IMG/VR virus record: IMGVR_UViG_3300025137_000144
Span: 1-33,283 of that record
Origin: a virus
DNA: 33,283 bases
Direction: 5' to 3' (one strand)
A program made the position numbers and the translations under genes. Every line of letters begins with the position of its first letter. Positions within the stretch are counted from its first letter, which is position 1. The notes under the pieces were generated by a model. The model was not told where the DNA came from and did not search any database. It saw only the letters and a list, made by a program, of their open reading frames with translations. Positions 3,266-33,101 of the stretch are shown piece by piece.

Positions 3266-5713
3266 ATGTCAAAGATTATTGAGTCAATGCCAACTTACAG
3301 CAGTGAGCTGTCTCATGAAAAAGAGATGGTTGAACTAGGTAAGCAAAGAACTAACAAAAGAAGATTGAGCCACATACAACGTGGAGAGGAATCAGTTACT
3401 AACTATGGCAAGATTTTAGTAAGTGAAACTATCCGCCCTCTTGCATATGGTATTGTAAATTTTTTAGAACAGTGTGCAAAACAAACTACAGGACAGCCTC
3501 CAGTTGCATTTATGTTTCTGTCAGGTATTGACCCTGAGGTAACAGCGTTGATAACAGCGAAGCACATCATTAACACAATCACAAACCACAGACCATTAAC
3601 TGCTACTTGCATTGCACTGGGCGGTAAGATTGAAACTGAAGAACAATTAAAAAACTTTAAGAACCTGAACCCAGAACTTTACGAAACTGTAAAAATGGAT
3701 TTAGATAAACGGTCATGGAACTATGCTTACAAAAGAAGGAAGCTTAGGGAGTCAGCCAAAAGAGGTGAGGTTGCATGGGAAGAGTGGACGACACCCCAAA
3801 AGCTACATGTTGGCATACGTTTAGTTGATTTAATGGTTGCTACTACAGGCATGATTGAAGTAGGCACGGAAACTATTAATCGTAAGAAAACTAAAATACT
3901 TAAACAGACCCAAAAGACAAAGGACTGGATAGCGGACAGAAACTCCTTTAATGAATTGCTTAACCCTGAGTACCTGCCTTTGGTTATGTTTCCGAAACAA
4001 TGGGAAGCTCCAGTTGGTGGTGGCTATTGGACATCAGAAATGCCAGAGCTTGATTTAGTCAAGGTAAGAAACAATAATTTTAAAAAAGAATTAGAAAACT
4101 TTGACTTATCAAAAATATACTCAGCAGTTAATGCGATGCAGAACACACCCTTCAAAATTAATCAGTATATTTTAAAGGTGATGCAAGAAGCTTGGGATAA
4201 TGAGATACCTATTGGTGGAGTACCGCCTGCAAATGATTTACCAGTACCCAATAAACCTCACGATATAGAGACTAATGAAGAAGCAAGGAAAGAGTGGAAG
4301 AAACAGGCAGTCATAACACACACTGAAAATGCCCGTATGTTTAGTAAGCGTTTACTGTATGCAAAAATTTTATGGACAGCTCATAAATTTGAAAAATATA
4401 AAACTTTATACTTTCCTTTACAGCTCGATTTTAGAGGCAGAGCTTATTGTGTTCCTGCATTTTTAAACTATCAAGCAGTCTCAGGAGCTAAGGCTTTACT
4501 TAACTTTAGCAATGGCAAAGCTATCACTAAAGAAAACAAGGGAGAGTTTTGGCTTGCTGTACACGGTGCAAACATGTGGGGTGAAGATAAAATCTCATTA
4601 AAAGACCGAGTGCAATGGGTGCAAGACAACGAAGCAATGATAATAAAATGTGCTCAAGAACCGTTAGTAAATAAAGAATGGGAAAGCACATCGTCAGCTT
4701 TTCAAACACTAGCATGGTGTGAAGAGTGGCGACAATATAAAGAACATGGTGAAGGTTTTGTTTCTACACTTCCTATATCCATAGATGGTACATGCAACGG
4801 ACTTCAGTTATATAGTTTGATGTTGAAAGATGAAGAAGCAGGCAAGCTTGTTAATGTTGTCCCGTCTGCTACACCGCAAGACATATATCAAATTGTTGCT
4901 GATGCAGTTATTCTTAAATTACATGAGCATGTGGCGGAGGGTGGCTATCCATATGCACAGCTATGGCTTAACTATGGAGTCAAACGAAGCACAACAAAGC
5001 GAAGCATCATGACTATATGCTATGGGTCAACACGATACTCATGCACAGACTTTGTTGTTGAAGAGCTTACTAAAAGAAAAGACAAGGGTGAGCAACATCC
5101 TTTTGGTAATGATATTTTTAAACCAAGCACGTACTTAGCAGGTGTGATTTGGGAAAGCATTGGTAATAATTTAAACAGTGCAAGAGAAGGTATGGATTAC
5201 TTACAAGCGTGTGCAAGAATACTGGCTAAAGAACAGCTACCGATACACTGGCTGTCGCCAATAGGTTTTCCCGTCTATCAAAGTTATCCTGAAATGAAAT
5301 CTAAAAGAGTTAAAGCTATGTTAGCAGGTGAAATTATAAAGCCTAGAATTAACACTGAGACAGACAAGACGGACAAACTTAGAATGAGTAATGGCATTGC
5401 ACCTAACCTTGTCCATTCACTTGACTCAGCTTGTATGATGCAGACAGTAAACATTGCATACAGCAAGGGATTAAAAAGTTTTGCAAACGTGCATGATAGT
5501 TTTGGCACAACAGCAGGTGACATGGAATGTTTAACTGAGTGTTTAAAAGAAGCTTTCACAGAAATTTTTACACAACACAATGTCTTACAAGAATTTAAAG
5601 ATGACATTTATTATCAAGTGCCTGAACATCTTAGAGACGACTTACCTGATGTCCCTGACTTTGGACAGTTAGATGTAAATGAATTAAAAAATTGTGAATT
5701 CTTTTTTAGTTAA
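3266..5713 (+). CDS. Single-subunit DNA-dependent RNA polymerase, T7 type (815 aa)
   Basis: ATG at 3266 follows ATAGGAG. The 815-residue product, somewhat shorter than T7 RNA polymerase (883), has all the catalytic motifs: LDFRGRAY near 387, motif A DGTCNG with D507 (T7 D537), motif B KRSTTKRSIMTICYG with R574, K578 and Y586 (T7 R627, K631, Y639), and motif C HDSF with D744 (T7 D812). It transcribes the middle and late phage genes from phage-specific promoters, probably the TAAAGTRCCC sites described here. It lies directly after attP, so in a prophage it would be the first gene downstream of the host tRNA promoter. Confidence 0.98.
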   Translation: MSKIIESMPTYSSELSHEKEMVELGKQRTNKRRLSHIQRGEESVTNYGKILVSETIRPLAYGIVNFLEQCAKQTTGQPPVAFMFLSGIDPEVTALITAKHIINTITNHRPLTATCIALGGKIETEEQLKNFKNLNPELYETVKMDLDKRSWNYAYKRRKLRESAKRGEVAWEEWTTPQKLHVGIRLVDLMVATTGMIEVGTETINRKKTKILKQTQKTKDWIADRNSFNELLNPEYLPLVMFPKQWEAPVGGGYWTSEMPELDLVKVRNNNFKKELENFDLSKIYSAVNAMQNTPFKINQYILKVMQEAWDNEIPIGGVPPANDLPVPNKPHDIETNEEARKEWKKQAVITHTENARMFSKRLLYAKILWTAHKFEKYKTLYFPLQLDFRGRAYCVPAFLNYQAVSGAKALLNFSNGKAITKENKGEFWLAVHGANMWGEDKISLKDRVQWVQDNEAMIIKCAQEPLVNKEWESTSSAFQTLAWCEEWRQYKEHGEGFVSTLPISIDGTCNGLQLYSLMLKDEEAGKLVNVVPSATPQDIYQIVADAVILKLHEHVAEGGYPYAQLWLNYGVKRSTTKRSIMTICYGSTRYSCTDFVVEELTKRKDKGEQHPFGNDIFKPSTYLAGVIWESIGNNLNSAREGMDYLQACARILAKEQLPIHWLSPIGFPVYQSYPEMKSKRVKAMLAGEIIKPRINTETDKTDKLRMSNGIAPNLVHSLDSACMMQTVNIAYSKGLKSFANVHDSFGTTAGDMECLTECLKEAFTEIFTQHNVLQEFKDDIYYQVPEHLRDDLPDVPDFGQLDVNELKNCEFFFS

Positions 5714-5795: not shown

Positions 5796-6437
5796 ATGGC
5801 AACTAAGAATCAAAATGTAAGAGTAGTTTCACCAGTAGGCATTAGTCAATACGCTTGGCTTACACAGCCAGACACAGCGTTTGACCCTGATGGTCATTAC
5901 AAAACTAATTTACTTGTAAAGACTGATGAGGCACAAGCATTAATAAAACAGATTGATGCTGAAATAGCTAACAGCGTAAAGCTTGCACAAGAAAGTAGTA
6001 AGAGCAAAGCACCAGTAAAAAAATCTAATGCTCCCTACATGGAAGAGGTAAATGATGACGGGAATGAAACTGGCTTTACTGTTTTTAAATTTAAAACCAA
6101 AGCAAAAATACACGCTAAAGATGGGACAATCATTCCAAACAAAGTGGCTATCTTTGATAGTAAAGGTAAACCACTTACTGACACCAATGTTTGGTCAGGG
6201 TCAGAAATGAAAGTTAGTGCAGAGCTCATTAAATATCATACCGCAGTTGCAGGAGCAGGTGTAAGTATGAGATTGCGAGCAGTGCAAATTACTAAGCTTG
6301 TCGAAGGCGGTGATGGTAATGCAAAAGGGTACGGCTTCAATGAAGTTGACGGGGGGTACGAAAATACTGAGGACACCTCAACAACACAGGAAGACGTAAA
6401 TGAAAACACGGAGATTCACGAAGAAGCTGACTTCTAA
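5796..6437 (+). CDS. Single-stranded DNA-binding protein, T7 gp2.5-like (213 aa)
   Basis: ATG at 5796 follows TGGAGATT. The protein is close to the length of T7 gp2.5 (232). It has an OB-fold-like body (NVRVVSPVGISQYAWLTQPD near the N terminus, and a later strand-rich region near residues 100-170). The tail is highly acidic and ends in a terminal phenylalanine (EIHEEADF), the feature by which gp2.5 contacts polymerase and helicase. It coats single-stranded DNA at the replication fork and helps recombination. The first gene after candidate promoter 2 and adjacent to endonuclease I, as in T7. The coding end overlaps the next gene by 38 bases. Confidence 0.9.
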   Translation: MATKNQNVRVVSPVGISQYAWLTQPDTAFDPDGHYKTNLLVKTDEAQALIKQIDAEIANSVKLAQESSKSKAPVKKSNAPYMEEVNDDGNETGFTVFKFKTKAKIHAKDGTIIPNKVAIFDSKGKPLTDTNVWSGSEMKVSAELIKYHTAVAGAGVSMRLRAVQITKLVEGGDGNAKGYGFNEVDGGYENTEDTSTTQEDVNENTEIHEEADF

Positions 6438-6822
6438 ACAAGTTGGTATAAGACACGGCTTTCGCTCTGGGTTAGAAGAGCGAGTAGCTGAACAACTAAA
6501 AACTGAAGGTGTGAAGTATCAGTTTGAACAAACTAAACTACAGTATGTTAAGCCAGAAAAAATACATACATACACACCTGATTTTTTTCTTCCGATTCAA
6601 AACATATTTATTGAAAGCAAAGGATTGTTTGCTACGGCTGATAGACAGAAAATGATATTAGTCAAAGCACAACATCCTGACTTAGATATTCGATTTGTTT
6701 TTTCTAATGCAAAGGCACGTATAAGTAAAAAAAGTAAAACAACTTATGCTATGTGGGCAGAGAGAAACAAGTTTCAATGGAGTGACAAAGTTATTCCGCA
6801 GGAGTGGCTCAATGAGAAATGA
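6400..6822 (+). CDS. Endonuclease I, Holliday-junction resolvase, T7 gp3-like (140 aa)
   Basis: The start is ATG at 6400, inside the end of the ssDNA-binding gene. The 140-residue length matches T7 endonuclease I (149). The family motifs are present: FRSGLEERVAEQL with E26, TPDFFLP with D61, and FIESKG with E72 and K74, the PD-(D/E)XK-type metal site. The enzyme cuts branched DNA, helping resolve replication intermediates and degrade host DNA. The N terminus is very basic (MKTRRFTKKL), while the overlapped frame codes the acidic tail of the DNA-binding protein. Its last 11 bases overlap the lysozyme homologue. Confidence 0.93.
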   Translation: MKTRRFTKKLTSKQVGIRHGFRSGLEERVAEQLKTEGVKYQFEQTKLQYVKPEKIHTYTPDFFLPIQNIFIESKGLFATADRQKMILVKAQHPDLDIRFVFSNAKARISKKSKTTYAMWAERNKFQWSDKVIPQEWLNEK

Positions 6823-7246
6823 AAGACAAAAAACTAAATACATCATTGTACATTCTACTAATACAACACCTGATAAGAACATAGGTGCAAAAGAAATTAC
6901 ATCACAAGACAGGAAAGATGGATGGCTGACTTGTCGCTTTCATAAAATTATTACAAGAGATGGAAGCGTAGAAGATGGACGAGACATTCGCATAGCAGGC
7001 ACACATGTTGATAGCGTTACTGAGGTTTACGATGTAACAAATGCTAACAGTATAGGTATCTGCTTAGTCGGAGGTGCAGGTAGTAATGACACACCTGACT
7101 GTAATTTTACTTTGAAGCAATACAATAAACTTTCTGAGTTAGTTGTATCTTTAAAGCAAGAGTACAGTGAAGCTGTTATACTAGGACACAGAGATGTGGC
7201 TAATGTAAAATCTCCTCAATTCAATGTAGCTGAATTGTTGAGCTGA
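6812..7246 (+). CDS. T7-lysozyme (N-acetylmuramoyl-L-alanine amidase) homologue with altered active site (144 aa)
   Basis: ATG at 6812, with AGGAG upstream, gives a 144-residue protein that aligns with T7 gp3.5 from its first strand. A longer frame from 6746 lacks support. Shared features: IIVHSTNTTP with H14 (T7 zinc ligand H17), RDGSVEDGRD, SIGICLVGG, and LGHRD with H126 (T7 H122). Comparing with the T7 sequence from memory, Y46 is replaced by F43, K128 by V132 and zinc ligand C130 by S134. Loss of these residues predicts weak or absent amidase activity. T7 lysozyme also binds and inhibits the phage RNA polymerase, a role that needs no catalysis. The gene sits in the T7 position, next to endonuclease I and before primase-helicase. 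Confidence 0.88.
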   Translation: MRNERQKTKYIIVHSTNTTPDKNIGAKEITSQDRKDGWLTCRFHKIITRDGSVEDGRDIRIAGTHVDSVTEVYDVTNANSIGICLVGGAGSNDTPDCNFTLKQYNKLSELVVSLKQEYSEAVILGHRDVANVKSPQFNVAELLS

Positions 7247-7256
7247 CCTTTGTTGT

Positions 7257-7285
7257 AACCCCACTGGGAAACTGGTGGGGTTTTT
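7257..7285 (+). terminator. Rho-independent-type terminator after the lysozyme homologue
   Basis: ACCCCAC (7258-7264) pairs with GTGGGGT (7275-7281 region) around a 10-base loop and is followed by a run of T at 7281-7285. The GC-rich stem stands out in this AT-rich DNA. It lies between the lysozyme homologue and primase-helicase. Confidence 0.85.
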
Positions 7286-7308: not shown

Positions 7309-8895
7309 ATGGATAACACAGAAAGTAATTTTCTATATCATAGTAGCTGTCAAGCTTGCGGGTCATCCGATGCTAACTCAGTATATGATGATGGGCATGC
7401 CTATTGTTTTTCATGTGGTGTAACAACCAGAGAGGAGAATCAAAAAATGCAGAATATTCAAGACCAAAAATTTATTGACGGAACAGTCAAGCCACTTACC
7501 AAAAGAAACCTCGATAAAGATACACTTCAAAAATTTAATTATCAAACAGGCATCCACAAAGGACGACCAGTTCAAATAGCAAACTACTATAATAAAGACA
7601 GACAACTAGTAGCACAAAAACTAAGACACACTGACAAAACTTTTCAATGGATAGGCGAGAGCCGAGAGTCAGGTTTATTTGGACAACACTTGTGGCGTGA
7701 CAAAGGACGTATGTGTGTTGTAACTGAAGGCGAGCTAGATGCAATGTCACTATCTAAGGTACAACAAAATAAGTTTCCAGTTGTAAGTGTAAAGTCAGGA
7801 GCACAGGGAGCAAAGCGAGATGTCATAAAAGCACTAGAGTGGTTAGAAGGATTTGAGTCAGTCATATTTTTATTTGACCAAGATGATGCAGGTAAAGCAG
7901 GTGCTCTTGAATGTGCAAAAGTGTTATCACCCAACAAAGCAAAGATAGCTACCATGCCATTAAAAGATGCTAACGAAATGTTGCTTGCAGGTAAAACAAA
8001 AGAATTAATAGACTGCGTGTGGTCAGCTAAAGCTTATCAACCAGATGGTATTATTTTAGGTAAGGATATGTGGGAAGAAATATCTAAAGAAGATAAATAC
8101 ATTACTGCTCAATATCCATTTGACTATCTTAATGCAAAGACACATGGTCTAAGAAAAGGTGAACTAGTAACTGTTACTGCAGGGTCGGGTGTAGGTAAGT
8201 CTAGTTTTTGTAGACACGTAGCACTCAGCTTATTAGAACAAAATTTTAAAGTTGGGTACATAGCTTTAGAAGAGTCTGTAAAACACACGGCTTTAGGTAT
8301 TATGAGTATAGCTCTAAAGAAGCCTTTGAATTTATCAAGAGAAGGAGTAAGTGAAGATGAACTTCTACACACGTTTAATGATACTGTCGGTAATGGTAGC
8401 TTTTATTTATACAACCACTTTGGCTCAACCGCTTCTGACAATTTAATATCTAAGATAAGATACTTAGCTAAAGCATGTGAGGTAGACTACGTTATTCTTG
8501 ACCACTTACATATGGCACTATCAGCAGTTGGAGATGAAACAACTAATGATGAAAGAAAGTTAATTGATTACACGGTAAGTAAACTACGGACTTTAGTTGA
8601 AGAGACAGGCATTGGGTTAATACTTGTATCACATTTAAAAAGACCTGAAGGAAACAAAGGGTATGAAGATGGAGTTGAAGTATCAATGAATAGCCTTAGA
8701 GGTTCAGCAAGTATCGGACAATTAAGTAACATGTTAATATCTTTAAATAGAGATTTAAAGTCAGATGAAAACACTACACAAGTAAACGTATTAAAGAATA
8801 GGTTCAGTGGGGAAACAGGACAAGCAGGAATGTTATATTTTAATCTTGAAACTGGAAGTCTTAATGAAATCAAAGAAACCACCAACGACTTTTGA
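7309..8895 (+). CDS. DNA primase-helicase, T7 gp4-like (528 aa)
   Basis: ATG at 7309 follows CGGGGGAAAC. Domain order matches T7 gp4 (566 aa). An N-terminal zinc ribbon has C14, C17, C33 and C36. A Toprim primase centre has E140 (VTEGELDAMS) and D190/D192 (LFDQDDAGKAGA). The C-terminal RecA-like helicase has Walker A AGSGVGKSS with K297 and a Walker-B-like LDHLH with D398. It unwinds DNA 5'-3' as a ring and lays primers for the polymerase. Unlike T7, I see no sign of the internal start that makes a helicase-only form, though I did not test this. Its end overlaps the next small gene by 32 bases. Confidence 0.96.
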   Translation: MDNTESNFLYHSSCQACGSSDANSVYDDGHAYCFSCGVTTREENQKMQNIQDQKFIDGTVKPLTKRNLDKDTLQKFNYQTGIHKGRPVQIANYYNKDRQLVAQKLRHTDKTFQWIGESRESGLFGQHLWRDKGRMCVVTEGELDAMSLSKVQQNKFPVVSVKSGAQGAKRDVIKALEWLEGFESVIFLFDQDDAGKAGALECAKVLSPNKAKIATMPLKDANEMLLAGKTKELIDCVWSAKAYQPDGIILGKDMWEEISKEDKYITAQYPFDYLNAKTHGLRKGELVTVTAGSGVGKSSFCRHVALSLLEQNFKVGYIALEESVKHTALGIMSIALKKPLNLSREGVSEDELLHTFNDTVGNGSFYLYNHFGSTASDNLISKIRYLAKACEVDYVILDHLHMALSAVGDETTNDERKLIDYTVSKLRTLVEETGIGLILVSHLKRPEGNKGYEDGVEVSMNSLRGSASIGQLSNMLISLNRDLKSDENTTQVNVLKNRFSGETGQAGMLYFNLETGSLNEIKETTNDF

Positions 8896-12273: not shown

Positions 12274-14151
12274 TTGAGTACAAGCTTACCCACCGTTTAT
12301 CAGGACGTTATTGCAATTAGTAGATACGCTAGGTACATACCTGAGAAACAACGCAGAGAAACATGGAGTGAAACAGTTGATAGACTTATTAACTACCTGT
12401 CATATAAAACACCACAGCTATTAAAAGAAATGCCTGCTATTAAAAAAGCAGTATTAAACCTAGAGGTTATGCCTTCGATGCGTTTATTAATGACAGCAGG
12501 AGAAGCCTGTGAGCGAGATAACATCTCTGCTTACAACTGTTCCTACCTTGCAGTAAACAACAAACGAGCTTTTAGTGAAGCATTATATATTCTTATGAAT
12601 GGGACAGGTGTAGGGTTTAGTTGTGAACGAGAAGAAACAGACCAGTTGCCGTTGATACCTGACACATTGGAAGAAGTAGATGATGTCATTGTGGTTGAAG
12701 ACAGTAAACTTGGATGGGCAAAAGCATTTAAAAAATTATTATCTAGTCTATGGGAAGGTGATATACCTACTGTAGATTATTCTAAAGTAAGACCTGCAGG
12801 TGCACGGTTAAAAACTTTTGGTGGTAGAGCATCAGGGCACGAACCTTTAAAACGATTGTTTGATTTTACATTAGATACTTTTAAAGAAGCAACAGGAAGA
12901 AATTTATATTCAATCGAAGTCCATGACATCATGTGTATGATTGGAGAGATAGTTGTAGTAGGCGGTGTAAGACGTAGTGCTCTAATATCCCTGTCTGATT
13001 TAACCGACAAGCGTATGCGTGAAGCCAAAATGGGTGCATGGTACAACGATAATTCATACAGAGGATTAGCTAACAACTCAGTTGCATACACAGAAAAACC
13101 TGACAGCGAAACATTTATGGAAGAATGGCTATCATTAGTTAAATCTAAATCAGGTGAAAGAGGAATGTTCAACAGAGAGGCAGCACAAAAGCAAGCTGCG
13201 TTATGGAAAAGACGTTCAGACTCTATGAGTTACGGAACAAACCCTTGCAGTGAAATAATATTACGTGATAAGCAGTTCTGTAATCTTTCAGAAGTTGTAG
13301 TGCGAGCAGGAGATACTGAAGCTTCTCTTAAAAAGAAAGTACAAATAGCAACTATACTTGGAACAATACAATCGACACTTACTAACTTTAAATTTATTTC
13401 ATCTGATTGGTCGAACAACACTCTTGAAGAAAGATTATTAGGTGTTTCTCTTACAGGTATTATGGATGCAGAAATTACCAGTAACCCTGACCCTAAAATG
13501 CTAGAACGATTAAGAGATGTTGCTAGAAGAACTAATGAAAAATTTGCAGACATTCTTGAAATACCACACAGTGCGTCAATAACTTGTGTAAAACCAAGCG
13601 GTACTGTAAGCCAATTAGTAGATGCTGCATCAGGCATTCACGCAAGACATTCAGATTATTATTATCGTAGAGTTAGAGTAGATAAAAAAGACCCTGTGTA
13701 TGACTTTCTAAAAGACAAAGGTGTTGAAGTAGAAGATGAAGCTTTTAGACCTGACAACACAGCCGTGTTTACTTTTCCAATGAAAGCTCCTGATGGAGCT
13801 GTTCTTCGTAATGATAAAACTGCTATTGAACAAATGGAAAACTGGTTAGTATATCAACGACATTGGTGTGAACATAAACCATCTGTTACTATCTCTGTTA
13901 AAGATGAAGAGTGGGTAGAAGCAGGTGCGTGGGTGTGGAAACATTTTGATGAAATATCAGGCATATCTTTCTTACCACACAGTGACCATACATACGTTCA
14001 AGCACCTTATGAAGACTGTACTAAAGAACAATATGAACAGTTATTTAAAACAACACCCCAAAATATAGACTGGTTAAAGTTTATTGAAGCGGATGACAAC
14101 ACAACTGCGGCACAGACACTAGCATGCACAGGCGGTTCTTGTGAAGTATAG
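12274..14151 (+). CDS. Adenosylcobalamin-dependent (class II, monomeric) ribonucleotide reductase (625 aa)
   Basis: Start is TTG at 12274, supported by AAGGAG eight bases upstream and no nearby ATG. The protein resembles the monomeric Lactobacillus-type ribonucleoside-triphosphate reductase. C89 (SAYNCSYL) and C336 (QFCNLSE) fit the redox-active pair. C325 in NPCSEI fits the thiyl-radical cysteine, and the 11-residue spacing to C336 equals C408-C419 of the Lactobacillus enzyme. The C-terminal CTGGSC (C618, C623) is the shuttle pair. It makes deoxynucleotides for phage replication and needs vitamin B12. It ends the replication block; candidate promoter 3 begins two bases after its stop. Confidence 0.95.
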   Translation: MSTSLPTVYQDVIAISRYARYIPEKQRRETWSETVDRLINYLSYKTPQLLKEMPAIKKAVLNLEVMPSMRLLMTAGEACERDNISAYNCSYLAVNNKRAFSEALYILMNGTGVGFSCEREETDQLPLIPDTLEEVDDVIVVEDSKLGWAKAFKKLLSSLWEGDIPTVDYSKVRPAGARLKTFGGRASGHEPLKRLFDFTLDTFKEATGRNLYSIEVHDIMCMIGEIVVVGGVRRSALISLSDLTDKRMREAKMGAWYNDNSYRGLANNSVAYTEKPDSETFMEEWLSLVKSKSGERGMFNREAAQKQAALWKRRSDSMSYGTNPCSEIILRDKQFCNLSEVVVRAGDTEASLKKKVQIATILGTIQSTLTNFKFISSDWSNNTLEERLLGVSLTGIMDAEITSNPDPKMLERLRDVARRTNEKFADILEIPHSASITCVKPSGTVSQLVDAASGIHARHSDYYYRRVRVDKKDPVYDFLKDKGVEVEDEAFRPDNTAVFTFPMKAPDGAVLRNDKTAIEQMENWLVYQRHWCEHKPSVTISVKDEEWVEAGAWVWKHFDEISGISFLPHSDHTYVQAPYEDCTKEQYEQLFKTTPQNIDWLKFIEADDNTTAAQTLACTGGSCEV

Positions 14152-32588: not shown

Positions 32589-33101
32589 ATGTTAAAAGAT
32601 TATGGTGCAACAAATAGCCATAAACTTTCTTTTGCATTTACACACTTAAACAAAGAGGGCGTATTTAAAAAAGGTAGCGTTAATATTGACATTGGTGGTG
32701 GTATATATAACGAAGCTGAAAAATTACTTAAAAAATCTAATGCTATTAATTTAGTATATGACCCACACAATAGGACTGAAGAACACAATGATAAAGTTCT
32801 TAATATAGTTTCTAATAAAAAAGCTGACACGGCTACAATTAATAGTGTGTTAAATGTTATAGATAACGAAGTAACTCAACTTAAAGTATTAAACCAAGCT
32901 AAAAACACAGTTAAACCAAACGGAAAGATATTTATAAGCGTATATCAAGGTGACAAGGATGGGGTAGGTAAAGATACAATAGAGGGATTTCAACAAAACA
33001 AAAAAACTTCTGAATACTTAGATTTAATAAGAAGAGTATTTCCAGATGCTATGATTAACAAAGAAATAATAAGAGCAACAAACAAATTGGAGAATAAATA
33101 A
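32589..33101 (+). CDS. SAM-dependent methyltransferase-like protein (170 aa)
   Basis: ATG at 32589 directly follows the preceding stop, without a clear ribosome binding site. The 170 residues fit the class I methyltransferase plan: motif I as NIDIGGGIYNEA (32-43), an acidic residue at the end of strand 2 in LVYDPHN (D58), NSVLNVI (85-91) as the strand-4 region, and VKPNGKIFISVY (108-119) as the post-motif. It is small for the class, and no substrate-binding domain is seen. It lies between two fibre-type genes, unusual for a DNA methylase, so it may modify a virion or cell-surface component. Substrate unknown; the stop overlaps the next ATG. Confidence 0.7.
   Translation: MLKDYGATNSHKLSFAFTHLNKEGVFKKGSVNIDIGGGIYNEAEKLLKKSNAINLVYDPHNRTEEHNDKVLNIVSNKKADTATINSVLNVIDNEVTQLKVLNQAKNTVKPNGKIFISVYQGDKDGVGKDTIEGFQQNKKTSEYLDLIRRVFPDAMINKEIIRATNKLENK

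Follow-up and report, generated by a model that had tools for sequence, protein, structure and literature searches.

The window analyzed here is the whole of IMG/VR record IMGVR_UViG_3300025137_000144, a virus fragment of 33,283 bases from a pelagiphage-like member of the Autographiviridae. It comes from a T7-like phage that infects marine bacteria of the SAR11 type. The gene order, which runs from a MarR-like regulator and an integrase through the RNA polymerase, the single-stranded DNA-binding protein (SSB), endonuclease I, a homologue of T7 lysozyme (gp3.5) and the primase to the DNA polymerase, is the same as in Pelagibacter phages such as HTVC109P. All features of the central block lie on the + strand: the phage RNA polymerase (815 aa; 3266..5713), which we propose below as the partner of gp3.5, the T7 gp2.5-like SSB (5796..6437), and the endonuclease I homologue (T7 gp3; 6400..6822), within the 3' end of which gp3.5 begins, an arrangement shared with T7-like phages. 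These are followed by the gp3.5 homologue itself, a 144 aa member of the T7 lysozyme family with a damaged active site (6812..7246), and by its downstream neighbor, a T7 gp4-like DNA primase/helicase (7309..8895). Directly 3' of gp3.5 there is a terminator-like hairpin with a T-tract (7257..7282, + strand); most Pelagivirus relatives have a hairpin there too, with an altered sequence and a preserved stem. Elsewhere in the window, a ribonucleotide reductase encoded at 12274-14151 is similar to the adenosylcobalamin-dependent type (its 311 bits to TIGR02505 fall just short of the cut-off of 340), whereas class I alpha and beta subunits are encoded by HTVC109P and by the other complete pelagiphage genomes of this genus that were examined. 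A methyltransferase-like ORF (32589-33101) follows the tail fibre genes at the right end of the window.

The translation of the ORF at 6812-7246 agreed with that in a preliminary description of this DNA, which had regarded the product as a T7 lysozyme homologue retaining both fold and gene position. Both aspects were borne out. The protein shares 39% identity with T7 lysozyme, matches PF01510 (Amidase_2) with 48 bits against a curated cut-off of 26 and phrog_822 (PHROG 822) with an e-value of 2.5e-42, and has T7 lysozyme as its best match among solved structures (e-value 4e-25). The predicted model (pLDDT 88.9) superimposes on 1lba with a Z-score of 23.1 and an rmsd of 1.1 over 136 residues, and also matches peptidoglycan recognition proteins (PGRPs) with Z-scores of about 15. 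The gene lies between endonuclease I and the primase, which is the position of gp3.5 in T7. Thus, the protein resembles T7 lysozyme (PDB 1lba, 1aro_L) in fold, size and gene order, and both phages possess a single-subunit RNA polymerase. It differs from T7 lysozyme in its active site, in having an N terminus shorter by about 4 residues and in an insert of 7 residues around residues 66-76.

To assign the active-site positions we aligned the protein with T7 lysozyme in MAFFT and phmmer, numbering the latter protein without its initial methionine; apart from the two differences in length just mentioned, these alignments were gap-free around both active-site motifs. Two zinc ligands are preserved, namely H14 (T7 H17; codon 6851..6853) and H126 (T7 H122; codon 7187..7189), whereas the third, C130, is replaced by S134 (codon 7211..7213), leaving the ligand set H17, H122 and C130 incomplete. 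The catalytic pair is absent altogether, with F43 (codon 6938..6940) in place of Y46 and V132 (codon 7205..7207) in place of K128. These three replacements and the two retained histidines had been proposed earlier from an ungapped comparison, and the alignments confirmed every one of the residue numbers. A sequencing error or a misalignment as the source of this pattern is ruled out, as eight other distinct sequences display the same five-site state (HFHVS) and the motifs align without gaps.

The preliminary description had also suggested a survey of the lost sites in relatives, and among the homologues that we gathered from viral contigs and phage records the losses proved to be clade-wide. 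Of the homologues from outside the SAR11-phage clade, 121 distinct ones show the constellation H-Y-H-K-C at the five sites and three others depart from it, at K128 only (HYHPC twice and HYHNC once), a count that is somewhat biased in that part of this outgroup was fetched with patterns favoring intact motifs, one locus set being free of this. No SAR11-phage homologue that we recovered has all five sites intact. The strong conservation outside the clade indicates that the pattern within it is more than chance. On the side of the clade that includes HTVC031P and HTVC109P, K128 is lost in all members, phenylalanine replaces Y46 in nearly all, and C130 is often serine or alanine. On the HTVC019P side H122 has become cysteine and most members have phenylalanine for Y46. 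Among clade members with states other than HFHVS, a change of H122 to tyrosine or cysteine, or of C130 to alanine, also occurs, and the residues at the five sites vary even between close relatives. In a few members of the clade the site is largely intact: HTVC168P lacks only K128, and L310 only H122 (cysteine instead). The closest isolate homologue, gp15 of Pelagibacter phage HTVC109P, is annotated as a lysozyme, is 68% identical, occurs in the same gene order and has the same F, V and S at the three lost sites, but differs in additionally having tyrosine for the zinc ligand H122. In the tree, a branch with support 88 has every Pelagivirus sequence on the same side, and the sequence from the window clusters with an HTVC109P-like group (eight rows, support 100). 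A minimum of 10 changes at K128, 3 each at C130 and Y46, and 2 at H122 is required on this tree.

A more drastic version of the same protein is found in HTVC119P and HTVC200P (Votkovvirus), which encode a short gp3.5 at the same locus. In all members of this lineage H17 is replaced by aspartate and the loop on which H122, K128 and C130 lie is absent. H68 becomes isoleucine or asparagine in this lineage, as it also does on the HTVC019P side. When the predicted structure of the loop-less protein was compared with solved structures, T7 lysozyme entries ranked first. The Pelagivirus and loop-less sequences lie together on one side of a branch with support 96, which suggests that the two are joined, a placement that depends on long branches. 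The annotated start codons of these short genes are too late (L316 4000-4398, HTVC200P gp12; L317 4150-4561, HTVC119P gp14). The frame upstream of them encodes the first strand of the fold; in relatives the annotated ATG is GTA, ACA or ATA, and all differences in the codons before it are synonymous, which indicates that the true start lies upstream. The short protein is similar to that of the window in its locus, retained fold, purifying selection (see below) and the presence of a separate lysozyme in the genome, and differs in having aspartate at H17, in the missing zinc-site loop and in its overly late annotated start.

The consequence of these changes for catalysis can be gauged from mutants of the equivalent residues in related enzymes. 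The Y58F mutant of the Ts2631 endolysin retains 10% of activity and its C139S mutant 12% (PMC4573324); in T7 lysozyme the Y46F change abolishes amidase activity, and the C160S mutant of PGRP-LB is without zinc (PMC8124813). The protein from the window combines both the tyrosine to phenylalanine and the cysteine to serine changes with the loss of K128. Together, the clade-wide residue losses, the sister lineage devoid of the zinc loop and the inactive published mutants strongly support a loss of amidase activity, and judging from the sequence the protein is very probably no longer an amidase. It is improbable that it is still one, with C97, C41 or K133 standing in for C130 and K128, or with a weak activity that is nonetheless sufficient. 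Such a proposal could appeal to the retained H14 and H126, to the fixation of C97 and C41 throughout the 43-member subclade, to the location of K133 next to V132, one position off T7 K128, and to zinc-ligand mutants of PGRP-LB that are partly active on some substrates (PMC8124813). However, the tyrosine to phenylalanine change (Y78F) was by itself sufficient to render PGRP-LB inactive on every substrate (PMC8124813), and other relatives have lost other ligands, up to the entire loop in the sister lineage. C97 (codon 7100..7102), which the preliminary description had singled out as an alternative ligand that might complete the zinc site, is present in 43 of 43 subclade members irrespective of whether position 134 is serine (28), cysteine (13) or alanine (2), and hence did not originate as a substitute for C130. 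This is true of C41 as well, since relatives with an intact site, CRP-125 and LUZ100 among them, also have a cysteine at its place. The presence of either cysteine is thus unconnected with whether C130 was lost, and both are unlikely replacement ligands.

If gp3.5 no longer cuts the wall, as the preliminary description had recognized, another protein is needed for lysis, and a separate lysozyme, pesticin-like or glucosaminidase gene is indeed present in every complete relative with a damaged gp3.5 that we tested. Nine complete Pelagivirus isolates encode, near the terminase, a second wall hydrolase unrelated to gp3.5, which is a GH24-type lysozyme in 8 of the 9 and a pesticin-like protein in HTVC031P; in HTVC109P an extra glucosaminidase accompanies the GH24-type lysozyme, both adjoining the terminase. 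In L005 and L038, long contigs that are close to the window, a lysozyme occurs together with a glucosaminidase, and a lysozyme is also present in HTVC119P and HTVC200P. In all, a second wall hydrolase was detected in 13 of 13 genomes with a damaged gp3.5 versus none of 26 with an intact one, the latter comprising 24 genomes plus CRP-125 and LUZ100, which were counted without a search for the pesticin family. Fisher's test gives a p-value of about 1e-10, but these phages are related and the association reflects one or two evolutionary events rather than 13. Two clade contigs of about 36 kb (L018 and L075) had no match and, being likely fragments, were left out of this count. Absences from the genome-wide PF00959 scan are not absolute, as it missed the Eistla lysozyme that was found by a direct protein scan. 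Among the ORFs scanned in the 33 kb window, which ends before the terminase region, there was no second hydrolase. The replacement lysin is well supported for the clade, and from the complete relatives we infer that the phage of the window also possesses one. This also sets it apart from T7, as its relatives encode a lysozyme separate from gp3.5.

One might suppose that a gene relieved of its enzymatic role is decaying and on its way out, and in the HTVC120P group, which retains a related polymerase, gp3.5 is already gone from between endonuclease I and the primase; the variability of the active-site residues between close relatives could be read in the same way. In HTVC120P itself (L315) there was also no match to the GH24 or glucosaminidase families, and its scanned ORFs included no lysis family other than an internal virion protein family named with an endolysin domain. 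However, the median dN/dS of gp3.5 in the clade of the window is 0.178 over 521 pairs, which is well under 1 and on a par with its replication neighbors (SSB 0.171, endonuclease I 0.153, primase 0.165, DNA polymerase 0.154, with RNA polymerase at 0.093), and values of 0-0.24 were obtained in the loop-less lineage. None of the recovered relatives showed a disrupted copy, in a search that could miss such copies. On the dN/dS values we reject decay, which is very improbable: gp3.5, which nearly all relatives of this phage still carry, is under purifying selection and is retained for a function.

The preliminary description had proposed that the protein might survive as a regulator of the phage RNA polymerase. 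In T7, the Y46F and K128T mutants retain inhibition of RNA polymerase (PMC4573324), and this inhibition is independent of zinc (PMC5445346). The conservation of the gene, whose predicted fold, position and constraint are all preserved, taken with the dispensability of zinc for inhibition in T7, makes polymerase regulation the best remaining explanation, and we infer that this is the most likely retained job of gp3.5. Several observations count against it. The N-terminal region is important to the inhibitory action of T7-like lysozymes (R3S in T7, G3 in phi15; PMC10138996); relative to T7 lysozyme, the proteins of the clade are short of three to four residues there, the T7 inhibitory ones included. 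HTVC120P dispenses with gp3.5 while keeping its polymerase, and HTVC168P and L310 preserve much of the active site. On the RNA polymerase side, 4 of the 17 T7 contact positions are as in T7, which is not above the 33% background, but phages with an intact gp3.5 fare no better, so that this comparison is without power.

A different function, unrelated to RNA polymerase, would be that of a peptidoglycan-binding pseudoenzyme comparable to the non-catalytic animal PGRPs, which would hold wall fragments or assist the late lysozyme. Non-catalytic PGRPs such as PGRP-SA share the fold, have serine for the zinc cysteine and do not catalyze; the zinc-site and Y78F mutants of PGRP-LB still bind peptidoglycan (PMC8124813); the predicted fold matches that of PGRPs; and retention of gp3.5 alongside a separate lysozyme would be accounted for. 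Yet the HTVC119P/HTVC200P lineage has dispensed with the C-terminal loop that bears half of the active site, H68 is altered both there and on the HTVC019P side, and the gene is part of the replication block and overlaps that of endonuclease I, all of which makes such a role unlikely. Non-catalytic PGRPs are animal peptidoglycan receptors with no link to a phage RNA polymerase, and the tyrosine that is invariant in PGRPs (PMC8124813) is phenylalanine in the protein from the window.

Returning to polymerase regulation, the gp3.5 homologue would then be a pseudoenzyme derived from a T7-type lysozyme, which keeps the amidase fold but would neither bind zinc properly nor cleave peptidoglycan. Lysis would have been handed over to the unrelated late lysozyme encoded near the terminase, and gp3.5 would be kept for binding the phage single-subunit RNA polymerase, thereby tuning transcription, replication or packaging. 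We assign a probability of roughly 0.6 to this explanation in full, i.e. a dead amidase, a separate lysin and retention of gp3.5 for RNA polymerase binding. The broader proposition, that SAR11 podoviruses have split the dual-function T7 lysozyme by moving wall cutting to late lysozymes and turning gp3.5 into a dedicated polymerase regulator, with one lineage getting there by point changes and another by losing the zinc loop, has in our estimate an even chance of being correct.

T7 lysozyme is a classic example of a protein with two jobs, and one of these has apparently been removed by nature in abundant phages of the ocean. The clade-wide pseudoenzyme version of T7 lysozyme is real: the case for its catalytic loss is convincing, and its retained function is a probable one, suggested by the conservation of the gene and by T7. 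In the literature that we searched, we found no report of an inactive gp3.5 or of pelagiphage lysis enzymes. The gp3.5 genes of SAR11 phages are annotated as lysozymes or amidases, and this label should not imply a function in lysis. The toxicity of T7 lysozyme to the wall is a known nuisance in expression hosts (PMC10138996), and if the role in RNA polymerase regulation is true, the proteins of this clade would be polymerase brakes free of such toxicity. They would, furthermore, be natural separation-of-function variants, showing which parts of the protein regulation needs.
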